A stretch of DNA of 64,000 nt from Branchiostoma lanceolatum (taxonomy: Eukaryota > Chordata > Leptocardii > Amphioxiformes > Branchiostomatidae). This document shows positions 1 to 63,657 of the stretch, one piece after another. The notes under the pieces are model-generated. The model was not told the origin of the DNA. It saw only the letters and a list, made by a program, of their open reading frames with translations, and searched no databases. The DNA is taken from contig NC_089731.1 in NCBI RefSeq assembly GCF_035083965.1, forward strand, positions 1,230,001 through 1,294,000. The letters run 5' to 3'. The first letter of the stretch is position 1. Every line of letters begins with the position of its first letter. A program made the position numbers and the translations under genes.

Positions 1-653
1 TAAACTGTGTGGAGATGGCTTTCACTTTTTTTCACCAGTGCTGACATGTTTTTTTTGTTGTTGAAAATATCTCTCATGCCTGTATTTCACTCCCTTCAGG
101 ATTCAAAGACTTGCTTGGGTTTCAAACCCAGCCCAGAACCTCTATATTTTGGGTTAAGGACTCTAACTGTAAATTGAATTCCCACAGTCTGGCATGTTTC
201 CTGTTATGTTCCAATATCCCCATGCCTGTAGTCAGCTGTTGTTAAGGGTGTATATACTTGGTACATTTTACATACTTTTTGACTATTGTGTACCGAACAT
301 TTTTTTGAGTCAGCTGTAAAATATTTTAGATTCATGCTCTGAGTCTGAAGAAGGGCAGTAAGGTTTGTACTTATGTATCAAAATCAACATATTTCCGATC
401 CTGTTGTGTTGCAATTTCCTCATGATCATGCCTGTTGTATTCAGCAGATAGTACATTGTACATGTATATTGTACAGACCGGGATGAAGTTTGAAAAGTCT
501 CCCTCAGTCTAGATCTGACATGTTTCCTGCTGTGTTGCAGTGTCTGCACGCCTGTAGTACTAGCACGCCTGTACTGTACTGCACTGTACTGTACTGTACT
601 ATACTGTACTGTACTCCCCACAGTCTAATCATATGATTCCCGTTGTGTTGCAG
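1..653 (+). other. Upstream intron of the PLC-eta gene
   Basis: No coding exon is supported here. The stretch ends at the TTGTGTTGCAG acceptor that opens the first visible PLC exon at 654. Three older versions of that acceptor lie upstream at about 190-240, 385-440 and 505-560, each with a cagtct...tgtttcctg...gtgttgca-like core followed by a ...catgcctg-like stretch. A short (GTACT)n-type array lies at about 565-616. The copies look like decayed duplicates of the exon 1 acceptor region; only the copy at 654 opens the PLC frame. Confidence 0.6.
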
Positions 654-3016
654 TGTCCTCGTGCCTGGCCCGGCTACAGGAAGGTTCTCTGCTGACCAAG
701 CTGAAGGACGGAGCCCGCAGTCTTCCCAAGAACTTCTACCTGGACCCGGACAAGTCCTGCATCCGATGGAAGCCCTCACGGAAAGGAGACAACGCAAAAA
801 GTAGGACAGCCAAACGACTTATAGATAGATAAAGGAATGGGCTCAGTCTTAGTCTTTAGTATATATACATGCACTTGTTCTCATTATATGTAATATATGA
901 CCATGCCGATTTGATCTGTTCATTGATGGAAGCCCTCCCGGAAAGGAGACAATGCAACAATTAGGAGAGCGCAGTTTTAGTCTCGCATTTGGGGTTCCAA
1001 AGTATGGAAACTCTCCAGGACATTATGCAAAAAGTAGGACAAGAGTTTTTTTTCCATTTTGTGGCCACAGACATTTTTTTGTCATTTGCATTCAAAATAT
1101 GCTTAATAATAATTAATATCATTTCTTGTTTTTTGAAAAAAGAGAATTTTGACAATAATGATCATGGTAGTGCGGCAAATCACTGTGGTCAACGGTCACT
1201 GTGTAGTGGCGGCCAGTGCAGCTTATTATTTGCAGGTTAAATTCTAGCGTGACATACAGCCGATAATGGTCTGAAATTGCCTTACATATACCTGTGTTAT
1301 GATTATCAGTGGGTTAGTAGAAACATCAATGAATATCAATCAATAATATTGATTTTGTTTCAGTTCCGATCACCTACATCACCGATGTGCGGGAAGGCTT
1401 GAGGTCGGCGACTGACCCCCCAATGAACCTTGACCCCACCTGCTGCTTCCATCTTATCCATGGCAACGAGGGGGAAGCCATAGAACTGGTTGCTAGGTAA
1501 CCGCCATGTTCATTTCACGCTTAAATGTGCAATTTTCCCCACAGAAAGAGCCTTGTGTTTCCTTTGTTCTCCTGTGGTTTGTCCTGATGCAATAATATTG
1601 TGGTTGGAGATCACTAGATGATATACAATTATACAAATCATACAATATTGATGTTATTCTATGCTATGCAAAATGACTCTAAACTCTGTGGCAATTTCAT
1701 TTCATCCTGTTTCTTTCTTTTCTTTTGAAGAGACGTATCAAGTTAGTGATACTCTCTTATAATTATAGATTTTAGGGTAAATTGAGTTTTATTCACTTGA
1801 TAAAAATTTCATTACTACCAACAATATGGACTATAACGAAGTTAATTTATGCTTTCTGTTCCATGTAATTTAGCATGATATTATGTATGTCAAGCTTGCA
1901 TGTTGGCAAACATATCTTTTTATGAAAGAGATTAAGGACAAAAAATGTTAGATATTTGTAGAGACTACCGCCCTTATTACACAAGTCCATGAAGCTCAAT
2001 CAAACGTGTCGTTTACGTCCCATTGTGTGTTTGAAATTATTTTAATGCAAAAAGTTTGAATCCATTATTCCTGCACCTGTGGTCCGACTGGGGCTCTGGG
2101 GCCAGCTGGGTTTTTAGTAATAACAGAAAACATCAATCACAGAAACTGGGAGGGATGTTTCTGTACGTAGCTCAACTGAATTCGAAGAAGAAACAAGGTT
2201 GAAAAGTGGTTTAGTTTCTCATGCATGAAAAGGCATAAAATCTTCAAAGACATTGTCAAAATATTTGATGAACTTTCCCCTCATATTTCAACTAAACGAA
2301 GTGGATATCTGACTTTCAGCAGAGCAAGTTGGCCCGCACACCTCAGGTCGCAGCTCAGTCTTTATCCTTCTATCTCACTTAATGTTACTGGGTGTCGCCT
2401 GCAAAGTCAAGATTGCAATGATTTGAATTATGGTATGCATATACATTCATAAAAGCCTTGTACATGTACTTTAAAATCATTCCCCGTTGTGCACCTTATG
2501 TCTGGGTCAGGCCAAGGACTTATTGATCAGCTCGTACATATGCTTATCACTTCAAGTCCCGGTGATGTTTCAGAACCCTGATGTACTTTGCCCCCCCCCC
2601 CCTGTTCACAGGGATTCAATTACGCAGTATAGCTAGAAAATGGAGTGTTTGCGGTTTGAAACTATAATAGACTAAGTCACAGTCACACAATGCAACGGCT
2701 TTTTGCTGGGGTTTAAGTTCCATCGAAAACCGAGAACATAAAACAACCGCAAACATTTCTGTATTAAATTTTACTGTATTTACTGTTCCAGTGACATTTA
2801 AGAACGCTGGTGTACTATGTGACCCCCCCTGTAGGTCAGGTGAGGAGGCGAACATTTCTGCATTACAGTATTACTGTCTCGGTGACATTTTAGAATTATT
2901 TGCCCCCCCTGTAGATCAGGCGAGGAGGCCGCCCTGTGGGTGCGCGGGCTGAGACATCTGGTCATGGAGATGAGAGAGGAGAGCGGCTTCGAACACAAAC
3001 CCATCACAAACTGGCA
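654..3016 (+). CDS. PLCH: PLC-eta exons 1-3: PH domain
   Basis: Exons 654-800, 1364-1496 and 2915-3016 give residues 1-126 of the visible protein. Recognisable pieces are the LTKLKDG...[17 protein letters not shown] segment, [10 protein letters not shown], and [18 protein letters not shown] followed by [11 protein letters not shown], the order expected of a PLC PH domain that docks the enzyme on phosphoinositide membranes. Exon 2 enters in phase 1 and exon 3 in phase 2. The end of exon 3 is unusual: the best in-frame junction is ...AACTGGCA followed by ATATCCTTT, a U12-type AT donor. A GT donor at about 3040 is an alternative but needs a less natural acceptor. Confidence 0.8.
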
Positions 3017-3146
3017 ATATCCTTTGGTTCACCAAGAAGGTTATGTTTTGGTCAGCACGCGTGTGTGTGTGTGTGTGTGTGTTTGTGTGTGTATTTCTGT
3101 GTGTGTCTATGTGTGTGTGTGTGTGTAAGTGTGTGTATGTGTGTGT

Positions 3147-3187
<41 letters not shown>

Positions 3188-6100
3188 TGTGCAATATCCT
3201 TTGTGTTACATCATATTCAAGGTGTTCATTTGCTTGTTCAGACCCTTGTGGTGCCTAGTGCCACATAGGGCAGCAAGTTTCCTTGCTGTTTGAGTAACAG
3301 GGTGTATTTTCACAACAAGGGGTTGCTAGCCCTTCCCCTTTAACATGCTCAAGGCACCTCCTCAAACATGGGACCCCCATTTTACGTCCCTTTCTAAAGA
3401 TGGGTGCACTACATTGTTGTATTTGCCCCAAACACCAACTGGCACTATCCTCTGCGTTACATCATATTTAATCCAAGATTGCAGCTACTAATCATCAATA
3501 ATTTTTGATCAAAAGTAGTGGCTATCTGTGTCCAGTATGTTGCTGGTATCTATCTTCTAGTATCCCAATCTTGGCGAGAGACCAGATACAAGATTTGATT
3601 AAACTTTTAAAGCAGGGAGACATGCAGGACCCTAATATATATGGCCTCCGTCGGTCAGTATTGACCATGGTAAAGACTGTCCTAATTTACAACAGCACTA
3701 CAGCATTGACTATGGCTGAACAGCCCTATACGAGAATGGCTGTCTCTGCCACAAAAATCACATCTGTATTATAAAGCTGACTCAGTTCTGTTACAAAGCT
3801 CTTTTCTGTGGATCCGCTTTTCTTCTGCGTTGCGCATCAGTCTGGCTTCTCCTGATTTGAGCTGTCTGAACAGTGTGCATCTCCACCTGGAACGGCCACT
3901 TGCAAGGTCCTCCCAGTGCTCCGTATCAATATCTAGAGCCTTCAAGTCCCTCTTGCAGACATCTCTGAAATGCAGCTGAGGCCACCCGGTGCTTCTCTTT
4001 CCTGAGATCAGTTCTCCGTAGAGAATGGAGGACCCTAATATCTCTGATGATTTTACTGGACCTTGTACACCGAACCGGGCATACTGCCTCATGGCAGAAG
4101 TAACGCCCCTACATGTGTATCTCACTGGACCCGCTGCATGTTGGTAACCTCGCTGCGACCAGGCAATTTGACAGAGCTCTCAGCGAATTTCATGGATAAC
4201 TTTATCTGTTTTATCGTCTTTTTAGTCATAATTGTGCATTTTGCATGACATTTCCATTATGAATCCAACTGTAACACAACATCCAATGTATGGAACAGCA
4301 AGGCCGCCAATGTGCTGCGGGTCCAGTGAGAGGGGGGGCTTAAGGAGGGAAAGGGTTCCCGTATTCACCAAATGAACTACAAGCCACACCAGTTTTATTT
4401 GTTTAGGTTCTCAACTTTGAAAAGTATAATCATTATGGTAGATTGAGTCTTAGGGGAAAGCCTGTACCAAGCTACACGCAGTTGCAGTGAGTAAGTATAC
4501 TGTAAATGTAGAAATGTTTGCAGGGATTAAATTTTACGATTGGAAGAAAATGTGTTTGCGGTGTTTTTGAGTTCGCGTTTGAAACAATAGAAGCGCTACA
4601 GTCACACAATGGAACAGCTTTTCGCGGTGGTTTTAAGTTCGCGGGAAAGAATTCACCGCACAAACCATGAACATACATGTAAAACCACTGCGAACATTTC
4701 TGCATTTACGGTAGTCAGATGCAAGTTTTCTGGTCCCAACCTTCTCTAGAATCTCAAGTTCCTGATGAATTTCTACTTTAAAATATTCAAGAGCCAAGAA
4801 AATAAATTGGTGTGGCCCTGTCTTATCCTATCCAGTTGGCATGTCTTTAACCCCAGAGGCACCGTGCTAAGTACGCCTTGCCTTCCCTTGATTAAATCTG
4901 TAACCCCAGCGCCACCCCCACTCACCACACCAGTGTTTCATCAGAGAACAAATCAGTGTTCCAGTTATAGAGCTGCCAGCCGGATGGATCGCTTCTGATG
5001 AAGGGGGACCGACGCAATCTGTCAAACTCAGGCCACACCAATTTCATTTGTTGATTCTCAGAATTTCAAAGAAAAAATTGGAGCGACAGGGCGAAAAAAA
5101 TAATGTAAAAAAATGTTTTGAAAATAGTCTAGGGTGAAGATAAGGGATTACATAACAGAGAGAATAATAGGATTATTCAGCTTTGTATGTCCAGTATGAC
5201 TCATTTAATGCAATGCACCCCTTTCCTTGATCTAGTACTATGATTTCAGTGACAAAATTACTTATGATGAAATGTGACAACACTTTTTAGGTATGTGCAG
5301 GCTTTTAGAATCTATCTTGGTGGCTATTGAATTTTACATTGAGGTTGCTGCTTGAGTGTTAAGTGAGATGTATAAGTGCGTTGTGTTGTACAGAGTTGCC
5401 CTTGACCTTACCCGTACCTACCAGTGGCTGCTGGAGTGTTTCTCCCAGGTCGACTCGGACCGTGACGGCCGCCTGACGTGGCAGGAGGCTCTCCTGCTGT
5501 TCGACAGGCTCAACATCTACGACACCAGCGGCAAGATACAGGACATGGTGCAGGTATAGCCAACTCCTTTTTGTTTGTTTCTTCTGCATGACTGGTAAAC
5601 TACCATTGGGTGTACCAGTTTTGTACAATAACGTAATCGTAGTGGAGAACATCAAGTCAATCGTACATCCTTCAGAAATAATGCTGTACTAGCCATATAC
5701 ATGTAGGTTCCGTTTAGCCCACACTCAGACATGTTTCGCTGTGGTATGGCTTCCTTGGGGGGAGGGCTCAAATGCGTACATTCAAGTACAATGTGTTCTG
5801 GCTTTTATAAGCCCTGAGTGAGTTTTGTACGGTAGGTATAAGATGCGTTAGACTGGACGGTAAGGTTTGATCCACTCACACCAGGAAGGACCCCCTACTC
5901 TTTTCAATAACTGTGGTGGGTTCTTTAACATGCTCAAGGTGTGGCCTTACCCAAAACGGGACCTCTAGCTTTACATCCCATCCAAGAGGAAAGTATAGAC
6001 CGTTTAGGACTGCTGGACTGGGAGGGGTTCTTGGGTCTGTACCGGACCATCTCAACTCGCCAGGACCTCACATTGAGCAGAAGTACCTAACTGTACCTTG

Positions 6101-9100
6101 TCTAATATTGTTCCAGAAAGCTGTGGAAGGTTCCGGACTGCTGGACTGGGAAGGGTTGTTGGGTTTGTACCGGACCATCTCAACATGACAGGACCTCACG
6201 TTGATCAAGAGTAACTGTTCGGCGATCAAAACTAACTGTTCCTTGTCTAATCTTGTCTTGTTCCAGAAAGCAATAGAGGGTTCAGGCCGTCTGGACTGGG
6301 ATGGGTTCTTGGGGTTGTACACGGCAAGACTTCACGTTGATCAGAAGTAACTCTTCGGTGATGAAAACTAACTATTCTTTGTCTGATTTTGTGTTCCAGA
6401 AAGCTGTAGAAGGTTCAGGCCTTCTGGACTGGGAGGGGTTCTTGGGCCTGTACTCGACAGGACCTGACAGAAGTAACTGTTCAGTGATCAAAACTAACTG
6501 TTCTTTGTCTAATCTTGTCTTGTTTCAGAAAGCTGTAGAGGGTTCAGGACTGCTGGACTGGGAGGGGTCCCTGGGTCTGTACCGGACTGTAACTTGGGTC
6601 TGTAACTGTTCAATGATCAGAAGTAACTGTTTCTTGTTATCTTCACTGTCTTTTTCCAGAAAGCTATAGAGGGTTCAGGCCTGCTGGACTGGGAGGGGTT
6701 CTTGGGACCATCTCAACTCGACAGGACCTCACGTTGAGCAGAAGAAACTGTTCAGTGATCAAAACTAACTGTTCTTCGTCTAATCTTGTCTTGTTCTAGA
6801 AAGCTGTAGAAGGTTCAGGCCTGCTGGACTGGGAGGGGTTCCTTGGTCTGTACAGGACCATCTCAACTCGCCAGGACCTCGTGGTTCTCCTTAAGAAGTA
6901 CTCCGAGGGGAAAGACTTCCTCACGGCTGCAGAGCTCGCTCAGTTCTTAGAAAAGGAGCAAAAGGTCTGTGAAATTGTTTTGTTTGCATATCAAAAAGTG
7001 TACTAACCGTTTACTACTAAGATCCAATCAATCAACAAAATTTGTATTGGTTATGGAGATAAGCAGCATATATATTGGAGAAGGTTACTTAACTATTAAC
7101 CTTCAGCCTGCTGAGGTATCCATTTGGCACAAAAGATATATTGGTTACTGGGTTAGCCAGCAGTTGCATTGATGAAGGTAAGACATCAGTCCTAAATTGT
7201 CTCATATCGATTTAAAGTTTTGGTTCCTCCAGTTCTTCCCTTTAGTCACTGCAAAAGACTGCGGATGCTGTCGGAAACGTCTGACTGTTTCAATATTTTA
7301 TCCAGTAATCACAGTTTCTTGAGTTACTATTTTTTGGCGTTACCTTCCCTGTTGTCAGGTTGAAGCCTGTGGGCGAGGGCAGTGCCTGGACATCATCGCC
7401 CACTGTGAGCCGCGGGAGGACTACATGCTAAACGGCTGGCTGGGGCTGGACGGTGAGTCAGCAAAAATTGTCAACAAGATCAGGCACTTTACACAACCTC
7501 TCTCACTCCACTCAGGTGGAAATGAATACCTAGCTTTGGTTAGGGACGTCCCTCGGATAGGGTGTTAAATGGAGGTACTGTGTTTTGGGAGAGCCACACC
7601 CCGCGCACGTTAAAGAACCCACCACACCTTTAAAGAAAGATTAGGGGCATGCCCTTGTGTGCGATGGTCCAAATGCTTAGATTCTTTTGTCTGGAGTTGG
7701 TGATGTCATGGAGTGAAAATAGATGGAATCTGTTTTCTTATTAATTTGTACTTTAGAATGTCTGAAAAGCAAGAAAATAGATTGATGTGACCTCACTGTA
7801 GTGTAATGATAATTTGGCAACACAAAATTTGAGCGGTCTTTCATTTGTGAGTTCTCATTACACTAAGATACCCGTATGTGTGCAATCCTTCATTCAATTG
7901 CAAGATACATGTAGAAAAATAAATTTTGCATCCTTTTTGAGTGCTTTCTAACTCCATTTACATGCACGAATAATTGAAGTCTACCTGATGGAGGTCTAAA
8001 ATCTGAATACAAAAATTCAGAAGAAGCACATAAGTCACATAATAAGAAGCACATAATAAGTCCTTTATATTGAAAGAAAAATGTAATAAAAATATATTTT
8101 CTTTCCATGTAAGATTTTGAATTTTACTCCTCCAGGTTTCACCAACTACCTGCTCAGTCACCACGGCGACATCTTCGACTCTTCCCATCATGCCGTTCAC
8201 CAGGACATGACGCAGCCGCTGTCCCACTACTACATCGCGACATCCCATAATACTTATCTCCAGGGCGACCAGCTCCTGTCGGAGTCCAGCGTGGACATGT
8301 ACGCCTGGGTGCTGCAGTCAGGGTGCAGATGTGTCGAACGTAAGTTTGTTGATTATGAGTTAAGTTATAAAGGAAACCCAAGGAATGTCAGGGCCCGCAA
8401 ATCCATGATGCAAAAATACGACGTCCCCGTGATGTGAGAACGTACTGAAAATCGTCGCCGGGGTTTTTGTAGACTCACGAAACTAAGGGAATCATCAAGC
8501 AGCATGTTTTTGCGCGTTTTATAAAATTTGCTCAAAGTATGAAGTTATTACGCAAATGTGCTTAAAAGTGTTAGTAAATGTCACTACCATAAAGATGTCT
8601 GCATTTTTTATATTTTCATATTTTGGGCCCTTATATTGCTCTGGTTGCCTTTAATGTAAATTCATTAATTTTCGCTGGGATTTTATTTCACCATAGAAGG
8701 GGAAAGAAGGCTTAAATTGGAACACTTCTGTTAAAGTAGTTACTGTTGGTATATTATACATTGGAAACACATATCATGTAGTGTCATGAATTTGCGGTGG
8801 GGAGACTTTCATTGAAAAATTCAGGTTTGCATTAGCCTGAACTCAATCAAGCTCCTGTAACGGCTTGCTGCCCTGTAACCGCATAGCCGCCCAAGACGGG
8901 GAGGGGACAGAAATCCCCGGACAGCTGGAGTTTGCGTTATACTGACTAGGTTTGCATAAGCTCCCTAAATGCTGCCCGGCCGTACATTCATCGTTCAGAC
9001 CTCTGCAGTGCTTAGTGGCACGTTGGGCAGCAAGTTTCCTTGCTGTTTCAGTAGCAGGGTATATGTTTCTACAGGGAGGGGTTGCTAGCATTTCTCCTTA

Positions 9101-10812: not shown

Positions 10813-10844
<32 letters not shown>

Positions 10845-34967: not shown

Positions 34968-35007
<40 letters not shown>

Positions 35008-46809: not shown

Positions 46810-46860
<51 letters not shown>

Positions 46861-52800: not shown

Positions 52801-55800
52801 AAGCCAGCCCTAAGGTGGGCAGCCCTGTCAGCAGGGTTAAAAATCATGGCGGCCTCACCATCGAGTTTGGGGACACATTTCACGACAGACAAGGCAAGAC
52901 AAGGCGAACGTCAGCCTCAGAGGATCACATTTGGTGGAAAGGGGTCAGACACGGGGCGATTCTGGTATCCACGCGGTGTAACAGTGTCAGAGGGAGGGGA
53001 GATCTTCGTAGCAGACTCTTTCAACAACAGAATCCAAGTTTTCACCCTGCAGGGAACATTTCTTTGTCAGTACCTAACCTTAGAGCCAGGTGGACGGAAG
53101 ATAAACCCGCAAGATGTGGCCCTGGATGGGAAGGGGAACCTGTGGGTGGTGGGCGCGGGGGGTACAGAGTCTCCTGTGAAGAAGAACAAACAGGGCAGGG
53201 TGATGAGGGGAACGGACCTACAGAAGACGGTGTCGGACAGAGGAGTTGCCGTGGACACCAGGAATAACCACATCCTCATCACACACGTCACAGATGATGC
53301 GTACGATTCAGCACATGGTGAAGTGCTGGTGTTCAGTCCCGCTGGGGAACTTGTGAGAACTGTAGGTGGAGACTGCAGCTGGACCGGTTGGTTTGCATCT
53401 CTCCTCTGGCGGCAGGGGATGCGGATAAAAGACCCACAGTACATCACCGTGGACGGGGAAGGGAACATTCTCGTGTCAGACTGGGGCAATCACTCTGTCT
53501 ACGTGTGCAACGAGGACGGAGTGTATCTGTTCCAGTTTGGAGGTGGGGGAAGTGGTGAAGGTCAGCTGAAGCATCCCTGTGGCATCTGCACAGACAGGGC
53601 AGGCAACATCATCGTGGCAGACATGGGAAACAGCCGTGTGGAGATGTTTGACAAGACAGGCAGATTCCTCAAGCACATCACTACAGACATAGAGAAACCT
53701 CAGGCTGTTGCCATGGCACCACAGGGACAGCTGGTAGTAACTGATGCCCAAGAGCACAGTGTCAGCATATTTCAGAACTTTTGAATTGGAGTGAGGTACT
53801 CGTAATCATACTTAATCTGTATACATACATATATACTGTAAATGCATTTAAGTTTGCATGGTTTTCATTTTGCACCAAGGTGAAAATGAAGTGTCTGCAG
53901 TTGTTTTAAAGGCAGGCTAAACTTAATTTCGTAAAGCATACTGCAGTATTTTAAATATACCACTAAGACCAGTTCTGACTTGTTTTACACTAGTCCATCA
54001 TAGATTAGCGTTTTTACAACATTTGAAATTCGCGGTGTGGCGATGTAATACTGGCGACGTCCAAAGACCTTTGACCTTTGTGACGTCAGATTCCGAGTAC
54101 AGTATTGGACTAAAAAGTTTGCGGTGGTTTAAAGTTTGCAGTGAAACAGTCTCTGTGAAAACCGCGAACATAAAACCGCCGCGAACATTTCAATTTGCAT
54201 TTACAGTAGTTAATTTACAAGCTAGGATACTATGGTCCAGCACTGTTGATATATAAGTATATCATCAGGGGAAGCAAGATTTAAGCATCTATTCATACAA
54301 AAACAATTTACTGGTTTGCATCATTCTGTATTGTTGAATCATTGAATCATTATTGAGGAGGTTCACACAGTAGTGGATAATCTTACACTAGTTACAGTAT
54401 AAGAAGGTAAAAAAAAAAAGATCAAACTTTTAAAGGTTGGAGACAAGCAAGATATGACGGTTAGACATCCAGTTGATAAGATACGCAGAGGTTAAACAGT
54501 TACTAAAAGCAACCGAAGTCACTCGGATAGCTCAACTACTGACTGACTATACTATTCTGTAGTATTCATTATGAGAAGAAGAGATGACAAACCCAGTTTT
54601 TGCTTCATCTTATCGGTCATGTCTGCCATCATCCCCGCCAGCTCTCTCTGTCCGGACGCGATCAGGGCCTTCTCTCTCGCCAGGTCCTTCAGATTTCCTG
54701 GAATAGATTAAACGTCCGTATTGTATCCATGAATAATTTCATCAGGTTGGCTAATGACTGAATTGGAAGGTTCTTTTATTCACAACCAAGTATTTTACAA
54801 GAGCCACATTTTGATGACTGGTTCAGTGCACTGTGAACCAGTCAGTATTGCCCTGATGAATAGTCATCAAAACATAGACTCTTGCAAAATACTTGGTTGT
54901 GAATAAAACAACCTTGCTATTTGATAAGTATTGTAATCACAACAGCACAATAACGAGCACATTACATGCACACTCTACATCATCCCTGCCAGCTCTCTCT
55001 GTCCAGACGCGATCAGAGCCTTCTCTCTCGCAAGGTCCTTCAGGTTTCCTGGAGAAAATCAAACATCTGTGTTGTAATTAAAACAGCACAATAACGAGCA
55101 CATTACATGCACACACTACATCATCCCGGCCAGCTCTCTCTGTCCGGACGCGATCTGAGCCTTCTCTCTCGCAAGGTCCTTCAGGTTTCCTGGAGAAAAT
55201 CAAACATCTGTGTTGTAATTAAAACAGCACAATAACGAGCACATTACATGCACACACTACATGTACATCATCCCCGCCAGCTCTCTCTGTCCAGACGCAA
55301 TCAGAGCCTTCTCTCTCGCCAGGTCCTTCAGGTTTCCTGGAACAAATCAAACATCTGTGTTGTAATTACAACATAGCACAATAACGAGCACATTATATGC
55401 ACACGCTAACACATAAACTCACTGTCTGTTTAATGATCTGTTGTTCTTCGCCTGGCGGGGTTAGACGTGCTTGCACTTATCACTTTGGGAACACCAATTC
55501 ATTTCCTCCCTTATCAATATAAAGTTGAAAATCAATTGTTTGAGACTTTATGACACCTGTAGTTGCATTTGGGTCTGTAACAGGATGATTATTTCTTTTT
55601 GACTTTGACCAATGAGGTTATGTGTTTGGTATTAGAGATGATGTCCTTGTGGCAGAACTTGCAGCAGCCAGAGTCGGGACATCTTGGTTGGGGCTTTCGG
55701 AAGAAATGTAAAATGGGGGTCCCTGTTTGAGAAGGTGAATCAAGCATGTTAACGGGAAAGGGCTTAAGCAACCCCTTCCAGTGAAAATATACCCTGCTAC

Positions 55801-58575
55801 TGAAACGTCAAGGAAACTTGCTGCCCTATGTGCCACTAGGCACTACAAGGGTTGGAATGACCTTCATCTCACCTTGAATGTGTGAGGCGATGGAGACCTG
55901 GGAATGTTCCAGCTGCTGCTGCCTTCCCATGAGCCTCTCCTGCCCCTCCGCCACAGTCTGGATGGTGTCGGCTGCCATGGTCTGGATCTCGGCCTGTCCA
56001 GTCTGACAGGAAAAGGAGAAAAAAAAAAATTCTTATCAAGAATAGAAAAATATACAGTAAGTAGAAATCATCGCCTACAAAGATTTTTAACTGCTCTCAT
56101 ATTAAACATGGTGCTATAAGACCATATTGCTATGACATCAAAGTACATCTTTTGTTACATTCTTTGATGAAAGAAAAAATAAACAGATGCAAACCTTGAT
56201 GCTCTCCATGGCCTGTACTGCTTGGTCTTCAGACCTAAATGTTCTAATTTTTCTAGGTCTTACAATACTAAAGAAAATCCACAGATTTTTAAGAAACTTA
56301 CGATGTAAGATTATGTGATAACTTCTAGAGGAGAACAAAAAGCAGATGCTAACCTTGATGCTCTCCATGGCCTGTACCTGCTGGTCGGCTGTCATGACCA
56401 GCTTGTTGACCGTCTGCTCGGTCTTCCTGCGGAACTGCTGTTGCCGGGTGGCGTAGCAGACGGACCGCGCCCGGTTACTGATGATGTGGTACGCGTTCCA
56501 CACATCAGAGTCCATATCGGCCGTGCAGTCCGCCAGACTCTACAGGATTACAAAATTTACTCAAGTTTTTGCCTGTTTTCACTCCTCACCTCACCTATCC
56601 TATCCCCTGACCTTTTTGGGTTGTTGGGTCGTTGGATTTTGGGTTAAACGGACGTTTTGGGGGTCCTCACCCAAATTGGGGGGTGAAAAGGAGGGAAAAC
56701 TTTTCACTCCTTGGGTCCAGGTAAAATGGGGTAGGACCCCCCAAAAATTCATGTTAAATCTCAAATTCAGTTGGTAGTGTTGGGTGGTGGTGCAGACACA
56801 CACACACACTCACTCACTCTCCGGTGATTCGTCTGCATGAAAAAAAAACAAATGAAAAAAAAGGTGCATGAAAACAAAACAATAAAAAAAGTGAGGTGAA
56901 GTGCTATGTACATTCTGGCATGCTAGGGCCTGACTTTAATCCTCAGCTGGGCTGGGATAGCCATACTACTTGGTTCTAATTGGCTCTTCTCAATTATCAT
57001 TAGTCTGCACCAAGTAATTTTTATGGATGACGTCCTTAGGAAACCCTAAATCTAATGCAAGAGCGCGAAAAAAACACAAGAAGGGCCGAAAAAAACAAGA
57101 TGCCTAGATTTGAAATGCAATAGTCGACGACACATGTTAGGACACAAATTGAACAAGAGAACACAGTGTAACAACTAAAAATTATTTTATTCATCATGAA
57201 AACAGCAATAATTTGAATAAATCAGATGAAGTTGAACAGCAGTTGTTGTCCTGCCCTGTTTCTTTCCATATCCCATTGATTAACTCTTTGGTCATAGTTA
57301 CAGGAAGCGGAATTTCTTGTTTTTTTTCTGGGAACAGACCAAAATCAATGCGTGCGCGGACGTCATCCATAAAAATTACTTGTTGCAGCCTTATCTAGAA
57401 ACAGCTGGTTGTTAAACTGACCATCTCCTGGGTGCAGGGGAAGGTGGGCCGCCCCTCCACCTGTGATTGACAGTTCAGCAGGGCCACGCCCAGTTTGGCG
57501 ATCTCCTCCTCCGTCATCTCTCCACAGGAGCTCTTCAGCTCCGCAATTATCTGGAACAACAAATTCTTAAAATCTAGGATATGGGAGTTTCATCTTTTTC
57601 ACACCCAGTAAATTCTCACCTGCTGATGTTTTGGTGTCTGTTAGACACCTTCGTCAGAGTTTCTGACTTACACTCGAGAAGCGGTACGTCCAGTCAGAAG
57701 CTCTGAAGAAGGTGTCTGACAGACACCGGAGCGTCAGCAGGTGAGAATTTACTAGCTGTGAAAATGAAATCTCCCATATCCTGTGTTCTACCAACCTGAG
57801 GAAATTATTTTGGGAACAAATAAGCTGTCGATGAAGGTTAGACATCCAGGTCATAAGATGCACAAAGTGAGTAGTTACTCAAGCAACTGCATAAAATTTG
57901 AAAACGGTCATTTGACCATTTTATGCAGTTGTTTGAGACTGCGGATCCACAGAAAAGAGCTTTGCAACAGACCTGAGTCAGCTTACAGATGTGACTTATG
58001 TGGCAGTGACTGTGTCATTCTTGAGTAGGGTAACGTTAACTGTTTAGCCATAGCCGAAGGGCTGAGGTGAATTAAGCTTAGCATGGCCAATATTGTCTGA
58101 AGGAGGACATAATACTTATACTAGTCTGCATACATTTACCATGTCCAGATGTGTTTTCTTTATGTTTCAAGGGCCTTCACCTTTGACCTGCTCATGCGCA
58201 CTTGGATCCGTGAACACGCTTATACAGTTCTTCAGATTTCAACAATTACTTGACACCAAAAAAGTGGGTTCACACTTCAAACTACACAGAAGAAGGAGTG
58301 CATAGTATGAACCATACCCTGTCGTTGCAGCCATCCAGCGGTGACAGCTCGAACTGTTTGGCCTGCGCGAGAAACCGCTCGTCTGAAGTCGCCATCTCAA
58401 ACGGGACCTGGCTCGGCACAGCGCCGGGCGATCTCTGGTCGTCTTCGTTGGGTTTCTGGCTCGAAAACGGCCAAAAGAACGCGGAACAGGGGTTAAAAAT
58501 TAACCCAAAGATACAAAGTACCATAATAAGCTGCATTGCGGCCATTTCGGCGAGATATAAGAAGAGAAATCGCAA
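39414..58575 (-). CDS. bmb: Brambleberry/KAR5-family nuclear envelope fusion protein
   Basis: Exons in transcript order: 58575-58318, 57550-57422, 56539-56354, 56002-55873, 54697-54593, 50214-50098, 48704-48525, 47785-47579, 47093-46940, 46095-45983, 45256-45147, 42207-42046, 40282-40137 and 39543-39414. All phases agree and give 708 residues. Zebrafish Brambleberry is needed for fusion of pronuclei and micronuclei in the cleavage embryo, and yeast Kar5 for karyogamy. The family signature is clear: KSSCGEMTEEEIAKLGVALL, WNAYHIISNRARSVCYATRQ, LAREKALIASGQ. The order is signal peptide, Cys-rich luminal domain, coiled coil, hydrophobic segments and a C-terminal Cys/His motif. The start could be 58545 (MAAMQLIMV), which gives a more typical signal peptide. 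The exon 9 donor (GTCTCG) is the weakest junction. Six or so junctions carry tandem copies. Confidence 0.88.
40084..40122. repeat. (AAAC)n tract
   Basis: Caaa-type tetranucleotide repeat just after the bmb exon 13 donor (minus strand GTTT). Similar tracts follow bmb exon 12 (42012-42045) and several copies of exon 6, and PLC exon 11 (11821-11858). Confidence 0.9.
41344..41670 (-). mobile_element. tRNA-like SINE family, copy 2
   Basis: Same family as 28120-28400. This copy keeps the tRNA-like end: gcttgaacccgggccttc (B-box complement) and accactacaccacagggaca. Confidence 0.65.
42559..42735 (-). mobile_element. tRNA-like SINE family, copy 3 (partial)
   Basis: Shares cagggggctagtccactgg and cccaaacgctgagtgttaag with the other copies. 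It ends where the 31-bp bmb array starts, so the array border cuts the element. Confidence 0.65.
42738..45147 (-). repeat. 2.4-kb array of about 77 copies of the bmb exon 11 donor
   Basis: The 31-bp unit reads, on the minus strand, tcctgtcaaaccg|gtaagg followed by ttcttaaagaac. The first unit at the gene side (ACACCTGTCAAACCG|GTAAGG, donor at 45146) is the true end of exon 11. Most units keep a perfect GTAAGG donor; some lack 4 bp (tttgacagttct). Units decay toward 42738, suggesting growth from the exon side. Confidence 0.95.
46585..46655 (-). repeat. Duplicate of bmb exon 9 end
   Basis: The block ctttttggtttcctgcaggg-actagg followed by gaggtgacgat-like sequence occurs here and at 46938-47000, where it encodes the end of exon 9 on the minus strand (CRKPK). 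No donor better than GTCTTT is seen in the copy. Confidence 0.75.
46780..46866. repeat. (CA)n/(CGCA)n microsatellite
   Basis: Two CA tracts flank a cgcacgcacgca stretch, in bmb intron 9. Confidence 0.95.
46940..47785 (-). CDS. bmb: bmb exons 8-9: membrane segments
   Basis: Exon 8 (47785-47579) encodes hydrophobic stretches LAVLASCVLHVGYFLVAMV and AVMLVLVP, separated by short loops, then SLTVLLTITVVG, which continues into exon 9 (47093-46940) as NWLLIWLAQYLW. Two to three transmembrane or hairpin segments are likely, anchoring the protein in the nuclear envelope. The exon 9 3' end (SPCRKPK then GTCTCG) is a guess required by phase; a related copy of the exon 9 end lies at about 46585-46650. 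Confidence 0.7.
47308..47520. mobile_element. AAATGCAGAAATGTTTGCGG foldback family, copy
   Basis: Contains ggcatttaagtttgcatggt, gtgttcgcggtggt and, at the far end, accaccacaaacatttctgc. The same family is at 4498-4713 and 52279-52500. It ends about 60 bp from the bmb exon 8 donor. Confidence 0.75.
48128..48704 (-). repeat. Tandem copies of bmb exon 7 end and donor
   Basis: Three copies (about 48390-48497, 48264-48370 and 48128-48230) lie downstream of the true exon. Each contains the DKRMDFLAVSLGGAG-coding end, the CGCCG|GTGAG donor and about 45 bp of intron, spaced about 130 bp apart. Confidence 0.92.
48525..56002 (-). CDS. bmb: bmb exons 4-7: coiled-coil region
   Basis: Exons 56002-55873, 54697-54593, 50214-50098 and 48704-48525 give residues 192-368, heptad-like throughout (EGQERLMGRQQQLEHSQ, GNLKDLAREKALIASGQREL, SHEELLKDLMTVREKAQEL, LANLRQMNATVNYLLHLMDS). 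It is probably the rod that pairs apposed nuclear envelopes (inference from family). Exons 5-7 share phase 1 at both ends, so they could be skipped without frame loss. Each of exons 5, 6 and 7 carries three to five tandem partial copies. Confidence 0.87.
49428..50214 (-). repeat. Six copies of bmb exon 6 end and donor, joined by (GTTT)n tracts
   Basis: The true exon is 50214-50098. Five downstream copies end at donors near 49964, 49828, 49682, 49549 and 49428. Each encodes DRKMSHEELL.DLMTVREKA and QELWDKI, then ATCG|GTAAC. The first copies stay open in the bmb frame across the (GTTT)n linker; later ones shift. Copies lack acceptors, so only donor choice is affected. Confidence 0.93.
50425..50535 (-). 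mobile_element. LINE 3' end relic
   Basis: The block ctgactcaggtcttttctgc and ggatccgc...catcagtctagcttctcct matches 3778-3850 (cagttctgttacaaagctct, ggatccgc, gcatcagtctggcttctcct), the end of the LINE ORF found there. Too short and mutated to encode protein. Confidence 0.6.
51060..51462. mobile_element. Foldback element of about 400 bp in bmb intron 5
   Basis: The left arm ttgttgaagggtggctgagg...aattttgggatgtttttg is mirrored by caaaaacatcccaaaattcc...tcagccacccttcaacaat. The arms are about 60 bp and the centre about 270 bp without a long ORF. Confidence 0.85.
52279..52500. mobile_element. AAATGCAGAAATGTTTGCGG foldback family, copy
   Basis: Contains aatacatttaagtttgcatg, gcggtggttttaagttcgcc, ggtgaaacggtcgccgcgaa and aaacatttctgcatttacag. 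It lies about 350 bp upstream of the NHL ORF. Confidence 0.78.
52846..53784 (+). CDS. Intronless NHL-repeat protein nested in bmb intron 5
   Basis: A single 312-codon ORF opposite in direction to bmb. At least five NHL blades are visible: FWYPRGVTVSEGGEIFVADS...NRIQVF, INPQDVALDGKGNLWVVG, RGVAVDTRNNHILITH...GEVLVFSPAGELVRTVGG, DPQYITVDGEGNILVSDWGN...VYVCNEDGVYLFQFGG, HPCGICTDRAGNIIVADMGN...VEMFDKTGRFLKHI and a last PQAVAMAPQGQLVVTDAQE. This is the beta-propeller that ends TRIM2/3/TRIM71-type proteins, which bind RNA or protein partners. RING, B-box and coiled-coil parts are absent, and nothing upstream supplies them. It may be a retrocopy of a TRIM-NHL 3' end or a free-standing NHL gene. Start chosen at MAASPSSLG because homology begins soon after. 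No poly(A) tract is evident. Confidence 0.75.
   Translation: MAASPSSLGTHFTTDKARQGERQPQRITFGGKGSDTGRFWYPRGVTVSEGGEIFVADSFNNRIQVFTLQGTFLCQYLTLEPGGRKINPQDVALDGKGNLWVVGAGGTESPVKKNKQGRVMRGTDLQKTVSDRGVAVDTRNNHILITHVTDDAYDSAHGEVLVFSPAGELVRTVGGDCSWTGWFASLLWRQGMRIKDPQYITVDGEGNILVSDWGNHSVYVCNEDGVYLFQFGGGGSGEGQLKHPCGICTDRAGNIIVADMGNSRVEMFDKTGRFLKHITTDIEKPQAVAMAPQGQLVVTDAQEHSVSIFQNF
53836..54210. mobile_element. AAATGCAGAAATGTTTGCGG foldback family, enlarged copy
   Basis: The ends gtaaatgcatttaagtttgc and caatttgcatttacagtag match the family. The centre is longer than in the 52279 copy, with an insertion at about 53910-54090. It starts about 50 bp after the NHL ORF stop, so the ORF lies between two copies of this family. 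Confidence 0.7.
54593..55400 (-). repeat. Tandem partial copies of bmb exon 5 with acceptor
   Basis: Three copies (about 55345-55262, 55196-55116 and 55056-54968) precede the true exon 54697-54593 in transcript order. Each has a CCAG or CAG acceptor and the GNLKDLAREKALIASGQREL block but breaks after the LAGMM codons into common intron sequence (cacaataacgagcacattac). Only the last copy has the full exon and donor. Confidence 0.92.
54767..54915. mobile_element. Foldback element, 149 bp
   Basis: The arm ttattcacaaccaagtattt is mirrored by aaatacttggttgtgaataa; the centre has actggttcagtgcactgtga as a second palindrome. It lies between the true exon 5 and its first upstream copy. Confidence 0.88.
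56135..56400 (-). repeat. Duplicate of bmb exon 3 end and donor
   Basis: The coding end QAMESIK and donor AGCATCAAG|GTT occur at 56353 (true, GTTAGC) and again at about 56193 (GTTTGC). The copies share about 60 bp, including the first intron bases gcatctg.tttt. Confidence 0.88.
56354..58575 (-). CDS. bmb: bmb exons 1-3: signal peptide and cysteine-rich domain
   Basis: Exon 1 (58575-58318) begins with a hydrophobic signal (MQLIMVLCIFGLIFNPCSA), then FELSPLDGCNDR. Exons 2 and 3 add GEMTEEEIAKLGVALLNCQ, FPCTQEM, LADCTADMDSDVWNAYH and ARSVCYATRQQQFRRKTEQ. The evenly spaced cysteines are those conserved across Brambleberry proteins and are probably disulphide-bonded in the perinuclear space. The exon 3 end and donor have a duplicate at about 56190-56240. 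Confidence 0.9.
57576..57782. mobile_element. Foldback element, 207 bp, in bmb intron 1
   Basis: The arm aggatatgggagtttcatct...agtaaattctcacctgctga is mirrored by gtcagcaggtgagaatttac...aaatctcccatatcct. The left arm is only about 25 bp upstream (in transcript sense) of the exon 2 acceptor. Confidence 0.9.
57930..58030 (+). mobile_element. LINE ORF C-terminal relic with Cys motif
   Basis: The plus frame reads [20 protein letters not shown] then GSDCVILE and stop, the end of the same LINE family as 3770-4125, including the CxxC...C knuckle of its tail. 5'-truncated to about 100 bp. Confidence 0.7.
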
Positions 58576-59247: not shown

Positions 59248-62200
59248 ATGGCATCGTCATCTATTCACCAAGACATCAATGTGGCTCAGAGTGAGTACAC
59301 TTGTCCTTGTTTATGTTGTATTAAAGGTGAAGGCCCCTGAGACGTAAGCAAAACCCGTCTGGACGTTGTTATGCAAATCTAGACGATGTCGAGACGAGAA
59401 CTGTTTACAAGCCTTCACCTTTGACACCGCACATGCGTAGTCGGAATTACGAATGGGCTTGTTAGGCCACTCGTGGCCACATGATAATATCTCTTCACAG
59501 AGTCTGAGGGGAAAGTCTGTTGCCCAATTGGCACACACAGTTTCTGGGAGTGAAGAGAGTCAGATTCAGGTTTTCCTCACAGTCCCCTAGGCCTGTTTTG
59601 ATCATATTCTCTTGCTAGAATAACACTTAAAATGTCAGCTGAGCAAAGAGAATGAATCGGTGTGATAGCTATAAGAAACATGTGATATTTCCATTTCATA
59701 TTCAATTGATACTACATGTATATGGTACATGTTAACTGCTTATCAATGACTAAAGGATACAAATTTCAACATCTGTGTAGTCGCTCAGCTTTTCTTGTAA
59801 AGAAGACCAGATTCTCTACTCCCTTGGGTGGTCATTCAGACAAGGAAATAGAAAATAGATGTGAAGATACGCACTTCATGTTTTTACTGTTCCCTGCTGC
59901 TGTTTTCCCTGCAGTTGCAGCAGACATCGTGTGTAAGTTAGGGTGAGGGTTAATGTTCCCTGCTGCTGTTTTCCCTGCAGTTGCAGCAGACATCGTGTGT
60001 GAGTTAGGGTGAGGGTTAATGTTCCCTGATGCTGTTTTCCCTGCAGTTGCAGCAGACATCGTGTGTGAGTTAGGGTGAGGGTTAATGTTCCCTGCTGCTG
60101 TTTTCCCTGCAGTTGCAGCAGACATCGTGTGTGAGTTAGGGTGAGGGTTAATGTTCCCTGATGCTGTTTTCCCTGCAGTTGCAGCAGACATCGTGTGTGA
60201 GTTAGGGTGAGGGTTAATGTTCCCTGATGCCCTTTTCCCTGCAGTTGCAGCAGACATTGTGTGTGAGTTAGGGTGAGGGTTAATGTTCCCTGATGCTGTT
60301 TTCCCTGCAGTTGCAGCAGACATCGTGTGTGAGTTAGGGTGAGGGTTAATGTTCCCTGCTGCCCTTTCCCCTGCAGTTGCAGCAGACATCGTGTGTGAGT
60401 TAGGGTGAGGGTTAATGTTCCCTGCTGCTGTTTTCCCTGCAGTTGCAGCAGACATCGTGTGTGAGTTAGGGTGAGGGTTAATGTTCCCTGATGCTGTTTT
60501 CCCTGCAGTTGCAGCAGACATCGTGTGTGAGTTAGGGTGAGGGTTAATGTTCCCTGATGCCCTTTTCCCTGCAGTTGCAGCAGACATTGTGTGTGAGTTA
60601 GGGTGAGGGTTAATGTTCCCTGATGCTGTTTTCCCTGCAGTTGCAGCAGACATCGTGTGTGAGTTAGGGTGAGGGTTAATGTTCCCTGCTGCTGTTTTCC
60701 CTGCAGTTGCAGCAGACATTGTGTGTGAGTTAGGGTGAGGGTTAATGTTCCCTGCTGCTGTTTTCCCTGCAGTTGCAGCAGACATTGTGTGTGAGTTCCT
60801 GGAGGTGGCGTTCCACCAGATCCTGTACATCAGGCAGGTGTATCCAGCCGGCATCTTCCAGAGGAGGAAGAAGTACAACATTCCTGTACAGGTGGGTAAC
60901 TCTTCAGATTTATTTGATCCACTCACACCAGGATGGAACCTTACTCCAAGTGTGGTGGGCTCTTTAGCATACTCAGGGTGTGGCTCTTTTCCATTTAACG
61001 TTCTATCCGAGGGACGTCCCTAGATAGGTACTCATTTTCACCTGAATCGAGTGAGGAAAATGGTGTCAAGTGTCTTTCCCAAGGGCACAACATCAATACA
61101 AGACCTGTCAGGGATTTTAACTCAGTTCTTCAAGGTTCCGAGTCAACAACCCTAACCACAAGACCATGTTGTTCCCAGATGTCGTGCCACCCTGACGTGA
61201 CCCGGTACCTCCAGGACACCCTGCAGACTATCCGTCCACTGGTGGGGAGGGGCGAGGTCGACAAGGTCGTTCTGAACGTGACGGACAGACAGGCGCGCCC
61301 GCTGGAGAGATTCTTGTTTGAGGTCACGCCCCCCGTTCAACCATCAGTCAAGTAAGTCTGTGCAGTAATATAAAGGGTCAGGACTGGAAGGGTGTGTATG
61401 TGTGTGTGCATGTTTGTCTGTCTGTGTATATGCGTGTGTATGTGTGTTTGTAAACGTCACCGACAGACGGGCGCGCCCGCTGTGTGTATGTGTGTGTATG
61501 TTTCTGTATATATATATGTGTGTGTGTGTTGCATGAAGTGGGTGAAGTCTGACATCTCTGTTTGCTTCGTCTATATTTTAGTGCTGTCTACGATAATCAA
61601 TATTACGCTATAGAGATAATGTTTGTACCTAGCTGTCTTTTGTATAAGACTCTTGACTATCTTCCCTGATGTTCCAGTGATGACAGCTACCTGCTGAGAC
61701 TGGAGCAGGCCCTGAGAGCATTTGTCCTGAAGATCAACGTGTGCGACTCCATGTTGGATACACTACCACAAGGTGAACCAAACCTCTCAGATAATTACTA
61801 GCAAGTAGCAATAAGACTTGATTGTAGTCATTTTTGCAATAGATATGAATACATGTAAGTCTGCTTTCACGTGATTTCAAGCTACAGACTTGGGTCCCCG
61901 TTTTATGCAAATTCATCAGAAAGTCATGTGAATGTATGAAAGCATATGGCATATAACTTGGACACAGGTTTTAGTCCCCTTTGTATACAGTAGTACACCT
62001 TCCAGTTTCTGATTTTACTTTACTATGGAAATCCTTGCAGTGTCTATTGACATCTGCCTAATAAGTAATATCCATATAACTTTACATACTTAACATTCCA
62101 GATGTGACGTTCAGTGTCCATGTGTACACACAAGACTCAGCGGCGGCCAGTCTGGAGCAGCAGCAGCTGGTGCAGGTGGGAGGGGCAGATTTCTCTTAAT

Positions 62201-63657
62201 TTTTATTTCTTTGTTTTGCATAACCAGTAAACCACCATAAGGCATAACACACCCGGTCCAGTTTTGTGCAATAAGTACAAGCTGGGTAAGACCAGACTGA
62301 CACCGGGATGGACCCTAACTCTTATTGATAGGTGTGCTGGGTTCTTTAATGACTGCTCAAAGTGTGGCTCTCCTCAATCAGGAGATTCCCAGCTTTATGT
62401 CCCATCCTTATAGGATGCCCCAAAGCATTTGATCTTACATCTTAATTTTTCGTTTTTATTGAATATCCAGAATGCATGTAGGCATTGCCACATTCCAGTC
62501 GTACTTGCTGCTACATTGTGAGATGAAAGCCTGTAGAGTGTTTTCACTCTGTCCATATCAATGAAGCTTGCAGGTGCATGTTGGTGTCCTTCATTCGCAT
62601 TTCAGGGATCGTCATGTTTGTTCCCAGGGTTAAAATGAAATGCCGTGAACTACTACCTTTCCCCCCAAGTGCTAGAATTTCCAGCTGCAATATGAAATCA
62701 CCCTCATTAAATCAGGACCCCTATCGCTCCACGTTGCATCGCTCGCGAAAGGGGCCCTGATAATCACCGTCGGCTTCCCAGCGGCAGCGAAAGCCAAGCA
62801 AGCCAACTGACCTTGTCCGCAACTTCCGTCTGGAGATTAGTTCATCAGTCCGGTCATTGCCAAATAAGGCCAGCTCATTAATTATTCGTGAGCAAGTGTC
62901 GGCGACGTCGCCAGAACCATGTCTGGCGGCGGTGATTATCAGGGCCCCTTTCGCGAGAGATGTAACGTGGAGCGATAGGGGTCCTGATTTAATGAGGGTG
63001 TATTAAATGGATTTACAGTATAATGTGTCTTTCTCTGCAGAACTTCCCCTGGGTAGAAGCAGACAGTGACAGTCTGAAGATGCCCAATGCCAGGATCATC
63101 CCACTCAAAACCATGACTTCAAATGTCATCAAGGTACGAATCATGAATAGCTATTTGTTAATCCCGTCTTAAGCTTTGGATGCATTTGTTGATTCCCAGA
63201 AGGTAACTGAAATGGAAAATCGCCAGAGAATCTAGCATAATTTTCACCTGAACATCTAGCCCATCACGATGGATGGGGCTTTCAGCATCTGCGAACATCG
63301 GTTGTCTTACTGCCAAAAATGTCCTCAACAGTTTGCAGACTCGTCGTCTGATTGATTTTCCTTGTGTGACAGGGGCATTATATGTGTCACTTGTATAGCA
63401 ATGTGATAACTTCCCACTTCATTTTTCATGTCTCCTGTATATTTTTGCTGATTTCCGCAATTTTGGGGTAGATTTTAAATGGTTTTATCTCTATTTTGTA
63501 CAAGTTTCATGGCACTGTTGACGTTCGAATGAAAAGGTTGACAAATGTGATGTTTTTATTTTTGTTCATCAGGGTGTTGACGAGAACATCTATCTAACAG
63601 TGTCTTGTCTTATAGATGCAGCTCTATGTGGAAGAGGGTGACAAGACTGGCAGATAG
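59248..63657 (+). CDS. MAD2L2: MAD2L2 / REV7, HORMA-domain protein (complete)
   Basis: Exons 59248-59290, 60773-60891, 61179-61351, 61678-61772, 62102-62175, 63041-63133 and 63616-63657 join in one frame to 212 residues; human MAD2L2 has 211. REV7 is the accessory subunit of DNA polymerase zeta in translesion synthesis, part of shieldin in end-protection, and a regulator of APC/C. Recognisable blocks are [73 protein letters not shown] and the C-terminal MQLYVEEGD. The HORMA domain covers most of the protein, with the seat-belt in exons 5-7. Exon 2 follows a 14-copy array of its own acceptor; a fragment of exon 3 is repeated in intron 3. It is divergent from bmb. Confidence 0.95.
59882..60800 (+). 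repeat. 14 x 66-bp array of MAD2L2 exon 2 acceptors
   Basis: The unit is a polypyrimidine tract ctgctgttttccctgcag, exon start TTGCAGCAGACATCGTGTGT-GAGTT, then agggtgagggttaatgttcc. The fourteenth copy (60773) continues as exon 2. The order of variant units shows a higher-order duplication: four successive types in copies 11-8 (counted from the left as 4-7) recur in copies 6-3. The unit is open on the minus strand (a 22-residue repeat), which is a by-product. Confidence 0.95.
61388..61530. repeat. GT-rich tract with embedded MAD2L2 exon 3 fragment
   Basis: The GT microsatellite is interrupted at about 61453-61483 by aacgtcaccgacagacgggc-gcgcccgctg, a near copy of exon 3 bases 61276-61306 (aacgtgacggacagacaggc...). 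The exon fragment inside the intron cannot be explained by the microsatellite. Confidence 0.85.
62698..63003. mobile_element. Foldback element, about 305 bp, in MAD2L2 intron 5
   Basis: The left arm ccctcattaaatcaggaccc...tcgcgaaaggggccctgata is mirrored by tatcagggcccctttcgcga...gtcctgatttaatgaggg; arms are about 74 bp. The centre has a second partly inverted pair (ccgtcggcttcc / ggcggcggt). It ends 37 bp before the exon 6 acceptor. Confidence 0.9.

Follow-up and report, generated by a model that had tools for sequence, protein, structure and literature searches.

Introduction

Whether tandem duplications arise preferentially at exon/intron junctions is the question raised by a 64-kb stretch of the Branchiostoma lanceolatum genome (the window, meaning the whole stretch of DNA that was analysed). 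According to the accessible parts of two papers (PMC3087553, PMC3902484), amphioxus minisatellites called mirages occur in the Adh3, globin (BflGb6 and BflGb9), troponin C and PGBD5 genes; the initial annotation, which had named them at Adh, was thus correct, and the list is longer. A published mirage is a tandem segment across an intron/exon boundary, at an acceptor or a donor, with a unit of 10 to ~160 bp; the AG or GT is kept in many, not all, copies, and the copy number differs among haplotypes or assemblies (PMC3087553, PMC3902484). The globin paper, in its accessible part, places mirages in 2 of 15 amphioxus globin genes, along with one intron with degenerate repeats (PMC3087553, PMC3902484). 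An amphioxus huntingtin paper mentions several elements repeated in tandem as well as errors of assembly, and in its accessible part junctions are unmentioned (PMC2206037). No genome-wide count of mirages was found in the literature searched, which was covered in part.

Judged by sequence, the arrays described below are mirages, a kind of minisatellite that is already known. They likewise cross exon/intron boundaries, in a cephalochordate, and their units of 31-141 bp lie inside the published range of 10-160 bp. In contrast to the published cases, the 64 kb analysed here held nine long-unit arrays and nine further junction duplications distributed over four genes, one U12-type AT-AC donor was involved, and the association with junctions was explicitly tested against random seeding. 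Two other traits of mirages are the use of a single copy in normal mRNA and, at Adh3, somatic instability. The density of mirages in the accessible literature looks lower than that in the window.

Gene models and splice junctions

Four genes were rebuilt in the window, which yielded 95 splice junctions; intron sequence occupied 69% of the window. The PLC-eta-like gene (PLC; 654..26749, + strand) had 26 exons, and its 2119-aa model was an exact part of the B. lanceolatum protein P0241; its first coding exon was sought in the 64-kb window and was not found. The MAD2L2 gene (59248..63655, + strand, 7 exons) showed one mismatch to B. lanceolatum MAD2L2 P0001. Because the PLC and MAD2L2 models match annotated B. 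lanceolatum proteins, their junctions were located independently of the repeats. The brambleberry-like gene (bmb; 39415..58545, - strand) had 14 exons and 698 codons without a stop, and a model lacking 11 residues was 87% identical to the B. belcheri brambleberry-like protein P0121. The glycosyltransferase-like (GT) model was built on an open reading frame together with a match to FUT8 under the Pfam cut-off, and its 6 junctions are the least secure of the 95.

Two earlier readings were dropped. Frame checks and the annotated proteins replaced a GT-AG reading of PLC intron 3 with AT-AC, and the last copy of bmb exon 5, not the first, was found to be functional by frame and protein checks. An Rfam scan of the window gave nothing at the gathering score.

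Duplicated junctions

Repeats were sought by ungapped local self-comparison (+1/-1, offsets 12-1000, short-period repeats masked). At a threshold of 17, 732 hits were obtained in the real window versus 2, 0, 2 and 2 in four shuffles. A junction was counted as duplicated when a repeated segment covered it and extended 5 bp or more to either side. Under this rule, 18 of the 95 junctions were duplicated (A, acceptor; D, donor): PLC 1A, 1D, 3A, 3D, 5A, 8A, 9D, 15D, 17A, 23D and 24A; bmb 3D, 5A, 6D, 7D and 11D; GT 1D; and MAD2L2 2A. Seventeen remained when 8 bp were required on either side, and 17 or 16 when the threshold was raised to 21; the weak members were PLC3D (score 17, exactly the threshold) and GT1D (score 21). 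About twenty junctions with extra copies had been claimed initially, and 18 of 20 passed the threshold; by exon, only PLC exon 13 and bmb exon 9 were lost from the list. The PLC13D copy (13700-13718) scored 15, below the threshold of 17, and the copy of the bmb exon 9 end contained just 4 intron bases, which fails the flank rule.

In PLC (+ strand), acceptor arrays were found at exon 5 (6109..6880, unit 129 bp, the last copy being functional with the exon start at 6800) and exon 24 (22508..23186, unit 47 bp, 14 acceptors including the functional one, exon start 23164). Donor arrays occupied the ends of exon 9 (10143..10516, unit 93 bp, the first copy being functional with the exon end at 10210) and exon 23 (21437..21796, unit 97 bp, exon end 21454). 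MAD2L2 exon 2 carried an acceptor array on the + strand (59884..60797, unit 66 bp, 14 acceptors including the functional one, exon start 60773). On the - strand, bmb had donor arrays at exon 11 (43017..45163, unit 31 bp, about 70 copies, exon end 45147), exon 7 (48118..48615, unit 129 bp, exon end 48525) and exon 6 (49389..50183, unit 134 bp, exon end 50098), and bmb exon 5 (54697-54593) was accompanied by three extra upstream copies of its acceptor and exon start (54593..55408). The TRF array there (54931-55404) stopped short of the functional junction and was classed as junction-derived by similarity alone.

Nine further junctions were duplicated outside these arrays. PLC exon 1 (520..1041) had an acceptor copy at 520-554 and donor copies at 925-970 and 1017-1041; PLC exon 3 (2823..3454) had an acceptor copy at 2823-2849 and, for the U12-type AT-AC donor that follows 3016, diverged donor copies at 3428-3454 (score 17) and ~3191-3203 (by eye). 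Single extra acceptor copies were present at PLC exon 8 (9321..9549, junction 9480, copy 9321-9398) and exon 17 (16739..17176, exon start 17150, copy 16739-16787). A 24-bp satellite array separated the PLC exon 15 donor (15417..15739, donor 15470) from its second copy, at 15672-15739. All of these lie on the + strand, as does the GT exon 1 donor duplication (32256..32682, exon end 32665), the diverged copy of which precedes it by 360 bp and lies ahead of the start codon. The bmb exon 3 donor (56175..56386, - strand, exon end 56354) had a single extra copy at 56175-56227.

Altogether, 43 repeat families of any kind were found, of which 18 held one junction each and 25 held none. The units of the arrays were mutually unlike, each having the sequence of its own junction. 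None of the properties compared (GC content, GC skew, predicted folding, splice-site strength, exon length) distinguished the 18 duplicated junctions significantly from the remaining 77.

Association of long-unit arrays with junctions

The window contained twelve tandem arrays whose unit measured 30 bp or more, a cut picked post hoc after the arrays were seen. Nine were junction-derived (eight by overlap, one by similarity), one lay within an exon and two lay outside exons. Under a null in which units are seeded at random, 1.4 junction arrays were expected among the 12 (P = 3e-7 for nine, 6e-6 for eight). When whole TRF arrays were placed at random, 5.9 of 12 were expected (P = 0.05 for nine, 0.16 for eight). 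The unit null is preferred because an array is one amplified seed. In these array nulls, nine and eight were entered as fixed observed numbers, and the eight strict overlaps were separately confirmed. With all 20 arrays of unit at least 13 bp, P was 2e-6 for nine and 3e-5 for eight; none of the eight arrays with 16-24-bp units spanned a junction in an earlier table of 93 junctions.

Among all repeat families, 18 of 43 held a junction; the expectation ranged from 2.7 to 10.9 with the unit length assumed. Random placement of whole families, which used the earlier 93-junction table with some model errors, gave 16 of 43 observed versus 8.8 expected in the window (P = 0.003) or 10.1 in genes (P = 0.012), and 13 versus 8.3 for the 37 gene-centred families only (P = 0.03). 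Per base, junctions were not enriched in repeat coverage (18 versus 16.3 expected, a value reached in 36% of circular shifts); this test was not relied on because the extra copies of the arrays themselves fill introns and raise the background. The proposal that repeats overlap junctions beyond random positions, a proposal that arose from the very window used for testing, held there for long-unit arrays under unit seeding (9 of 12 versus 1.4) and not per base.

Divergence of the copies

It had also been proposed that copies retain the splice site while their flanks decay. Among the 254 splice-dinucleotide positions of the copies, 7 were off consensus versus 246 of 5079 positions elsewhere, a difference without significance. 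Eight arrays had none of 108 such positions off consensus; the 73-copy bmb exon 11 array had 7 of 146, which was higher than its own background (71 of 2117), and retention is therefore a weak trend at most. The inner copies of eight arrays, aligned with gaps and pooled, differed at 141 of 3445 positions in the exon half and at 162 of 5029 in the intron half; taken singly, three of these arrays had the lower divergence in the exon half and five had the higher. An apparent better conservation of the exon half in seven of nine arrays was absent from the gapped pool and was read largely as a product of aligning unit ends without gaps. Since splice sites were not significantly better kept and the two halves were alike when pooled, the copies look neutral.

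Extra copies lay on the intron side at 17 of the 18 duplicated junctions. In P0241, every array-bearing PLC exon end occurs once, as the outer copy alone. P0242 and P0124 are annotated as coding for some inner copies; the head of PLC exon 8, present twice in the window, occurs five times in the B. lanceolatum protein P0242, a count made at the protein level from annotation only. Within PLC exon 26 (25547..25742, + strand), 96 bp were duplicated in frame, and this duplication was absent from P0242, P0243 and P0244.

Discussion

The arrays are probably best explained by seeding or early expansion biased toward junctions, followed by minisatellite growth that leaves neutral passenger copies in introns. 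A segment of ~30-140 bp including a splice junction would duplicate in tandem, and nine such duplications would then have grown to ~3 to 70 copies by slippage or unequal exchange. With the exon-edge copy used in splicing, the extras would be disregarded in vivo and remain intronic, leaving the protein unchanged, and would drift neutrally. Ordinary intronic minisatellites share the head-to-tail growth, near-identical copies and neutral drift, but the seed here takes in a splice site together with a coding edge.

As candidate causes, the initial annotation had put forward amplification at junctions (through R-loops, an RNA template or replication slippage), perhaps as a property of the whole genome, or else tolerance of duplications. 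If duplications arose anywhere and selection purged only exonic ones, intronic and junction-spanning copies should persist equally. The two wholly exonic repeat families are indeed in-frame (offsets 84 and 96), and the extra copies do lie where splicing hides them; however, a tolerated-placement null predicted only 1.56 of 12 junction arrays (P = 8e-7 for nine, 1.5e-5 for the eight strict overlaps), and just one of the 12 arrays was purely intronic without junction-derived sequence (a GT-rich run at 61393), despite the large share of introns in the window. Tolerance as the sole cause is decidedly unlikely. Alternatively, duplication may begin in exonic DNA, with units longer than the exon edge having to cross the junction. 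Exon-derived sequence was present in 10 of the 12 long-unit arrays, as this reading expects, but exon-only arrays showed no excess (1 versus 1.25 expected, a count weakened in that frame-breaking exon duplications would be purged unseen), and junctions lay closer to the unit middle than expected (P = 0.012; nine arrays, hand-measured positions). It has some claim to being right and is judged somewhat unlikely. A bias of detection or retention, by which the constrained functional copy keeps anchored repeats recognisable longer than repeats drifting on both sides, could explain diverged two-copy cases such as PLC 3, PLC 17 and GT 1, and the excess over all families was modest with the longest-unit null (18 versus 10.9). 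As an account of the whole pattern it is unlikely: the big arrays look young, with ~3-6% average mismatch to consensus in seven of nine and 12-13% in two (ungapped), and, pooled over eight arrays, the exon half of the inner copies was no better conserved than the intron half.

A selected function, with the extra sites serving as spare or alternative splice sites or as raw material for new exons, would fit the inner copies annotated as coding in P0242 and P0124. The unit lengths (multiples of three in five of nine, not in four) could be read in its favour, but they were not selected for reading frame; the copies evolve as neutral sequence does, each array-bearing PLC exon end is single in P0241, and such a function is improbable. 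Amphioxus is highly polymorphic, and two haplotypes or misjoined reads might be stacked at conserved exon edges during assembly. One globin mirage was wrongly assembled in the draft genome, whereas the PGBD5 authors upheld their original repeat sequence with new data, according to the accessible parts of these papers (PMC3087553, PMC3902484). Arrays in which units of 31-66 bp are repeated ~14 or ~70 times are not two haplotypes, and peptides within P0242 and P0124, other B. lanceolatum proteins, seem to be made from PLC8, bmb6 and bmb7 copies. An assembly artefact is very improbable.

Junction-biased duplication has a parallel in the gain of introns when AGGT proto-splice sites are duplicated in tandem in the genome (Rogers; Zhuo; Gao and Lynch, cited in the accessible part of PMC3087553): in both, a tandem duplication bears splice signals. 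In that process, however, the intron arises between two copies, whereas no family here holds two junctions. When 100 bases round each end of 47 introns were compared, the best score was 11 and none reached 17, versus up to 19 among 396 mismatched donor/acceptor pairs, a test that is blind to anciently gained introns that have since decayed.

It is possible, though tentative, that lancelet junctions are a genome-wide birth hotspot for tandem duplications, U2 and U12 alike, with introns lengthening from their ends and copies that may supply new exons or introns. Should the excess extend to the whole genome, exon/intron borders would be hotspots of mutation and a directly testable path to intron growth and new exons, and they might account for some misannotated lancelet proteins.

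Gene models and splice junctions

Four protein-coding genes were found in the window. Exons were placed by reading frame, by splice signals and by comparison with homologous PLC structures, and annotated proteins served as a subsequent check. The 2119-residue model of the PLC-eta-like gene (654-26749, + strand) was contained letter for letter in the B. lanceolatum protein P0241, and that of MAD2L2 (59248-63655, +) differed by one residue from the annotated lancelet protein P0001. An earlier model of the brambleberry-like gene (bmb; 58545 to 39415, - strand), which was 11 residues short, shared 87% identity over its whole length with P0121, the brambleberry-like protein of B. belcheri. The glycosyltransferase-like gene (GT; 32560-37651, +) gave only a sub-threshold FUT8 match. 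Together, the four models contained 48 acceptors and 47 donors, 95 junctions in all. PLC exon 22 ended in a GC donor (CAG|GCAAGT, 20429-20436, +); P0241 was consistent with splicing at GC, and P0242, annotated on a different B. lanceolatum contig, had six additional residues there. A long open frame at 52777-53781 (+), NHL-repeat protein-like by eye, lay within the largest bmb intron on the strand opposite to bmb, and an open frame at 30732-31334 (-) was similar by eye to part of a LINE reverse transcriptase.

PLC intron 3 (3017-5417, +) started with ATATCCTTT and ended with AC. These ends match the U12-type pattern, and the intron looks like a U12-type AT-AC intron. The residue predicted by this boundary was present in the annotated lancelet proteins P0241, P0243 and P0244; the annotation of P0242 differed there. 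One diverged copy of its donor lay near 3191, and another, with a score of 17, occupied 3428-3454; junction repeats are not restricted to one spliceosome.

Repeats at exon/intron junctions

Local self-comparison of the window, at a threshold giving 0-2 matches in each of four shuffles, yielded 43 repeat families, 18 of which contained one junction each (18 different junctions). The junction list of the initial annotation was recovered, by exon, in these families except for PLC exon 13, whose copy was below threshold, and bmb exon 9, whose copy had just 4 intron bases.

With TRF (units of at least 30 bp, score at least 50, overlapping rows merged; a low-complexity filter removed none), 12 long-unit arrays were obtained. 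Eight contained a functional junction, and a ninth was made up of three bmb exon 5 acceptor copies, which lay upstream of the functional acceptor; the units of these nine were 129, 93, 97, 47, 31, 129, 134, 141 and 66 bp long. One array was exon-internal (a 96-bp in-frame repeat in PLC exon 26), and of the remaining two, one was a compound of a 24-bp satellite, located downstream of the GT gene, and the other was a GT-rich run. None of eight further arrays with 16-24-bp units spanned a junction.

The extra copies were located on the intron side at 17 of the 18 junctions, downstream for donors and upstream for acceptors; the lone exception was GT exon 1, with a copy upstream of the start codon. 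On average, exon and intron each made up about half of a unit, and in nine arrays, with positions taken by hand, the junction was closer to the unit middle than under uniform placement (mean distance 0.12 versus 0.22 of the unit, P = 0.012). Donor and acceptor ends of the same intron resembled each other above chance in none of 47 introns. Therefore, the junction repeats do not represent new introns created by a recent duplication.

Three short-unit arrays (18682-19131, 15484-15672 and 18231-18293) began 9, 13 and 16 bp into the intron, directly past the donor, which they excluded. The 24-bp satellite, about CTGTCCTTGGTACTGAAATGGTAG by by-eye comparison of TRF consensus sequences, occurred in both orientations at four sites, in PLC introns (15484-15672, 16003-16252 and 18231-18293) and after the GT gene (37717-38575), as if it were mobile. 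In-frame tandem duplications inside PLC exons were observed at 25547-25742 (offset 96 bp; absent from P0242, P0243 and P0244) and 19373-19505 (offset 84 bp).

Dependence of the excess on the null model

Junction-linked repeats are real as an observation, and whether they exceed chance depends on the null chosen. When every base was counted, the proposed enrichment disappeared: 18 of 95 junctions were covered versus 16.3 expected under circular shift. Under a seed null, in which an array was treated as one amplified unit and a unit of equal length was placed at random, 1.4 junction arrays were expected among the 12 (P = 3e-7 for nine, 6e-6 for eight). The expectation was 1.55 for all 20 arrays of at least 13 bp (P = 2e-6 and 3e-5) and 1.56 with tolerated placements only (P = 8e-7 and 1.5e-5). 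Random placement of whole arrays gave 5.9 (P = 0.05 for nine, 0.16 for eight). For all 43 families, the expectation ranged from 2.7 (recognised length) to 10.9 (full offset), with P from 5e-12 to 0.004; rigid random placement of families with an earlier junction table gave P from 0.003 to 0.03. The seed null was preferred because copies of a junction unit add no junctions but enlarge the repeated fraction of the intron. Since the hypothesis was drawn from the window itself, these P values are no independent confirmation.

Divergence and number of copies

In gapped alignments of inner copies from the eight arrays other than the 70-copy one at the bmb exon 11 donor, differences occurred at 141 of 3445 positions in the exon part and at 162 of 5029 in the intron part, and single arrays went both ways. 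Splice dinucleotides were not significantly better conserved, which does not support the earlier suggestion that copies retain the splice site while their flanks decay. The extra copies therefore appear to evolve neutrally. The head of PLC exon 8 was present five times in P0242 versus two copies in the window, and P0242 was without the second copy of the PLC exon 26 repeat. The annotated protein P0124 contained peptides apparently read from inner copies of bmb exons 6 and 7. Judging by protein annotations, copy number appears to vary within B. lanceolatum.

Relation to mirages and possible origin

This kind of repeat is already known as a mirage, a minisatellite whose tandem unit spans an exon/intron boundary. 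According to passages of two citing papers (PMC3087553, PMC3902484), mirages were named at amphioxus Adh3, in agreement with the initial annotation. The passages of the globin paper (PMC3087553) describe mirages in BflGb6 and BflGb9, term the mechanism unclear and suggest intron creation by mirages as possible. Those of the PGBD5 paper (PMC3902484) add PGBD5, cite troponin C, and report that copy numbers vary among assemblies and that the original sequence was confirmed with new data. No genome-wide count was found in the literature searched, which was covered in part; as far as these searches show, the individual cases and how densely they occur in four genes are new, as are the U12 case and the random-seeding test.

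Two origins had been proposed, amplification at junctions and tolerance of those duplications that leave one working junction. That long-unit arrays confined to introns are almost absent is not explained by tolerance alone, and a formation or expansion bias was therefore favoured. Its closest rival is an exon-prone process in which duplicates that break the reading frame are removed by selection. Composition, skew, predicted folding and splice strength did not predict which junctions acquire repeats. For this window, a bias in formation or expansion at splice junctions is the leading reading.
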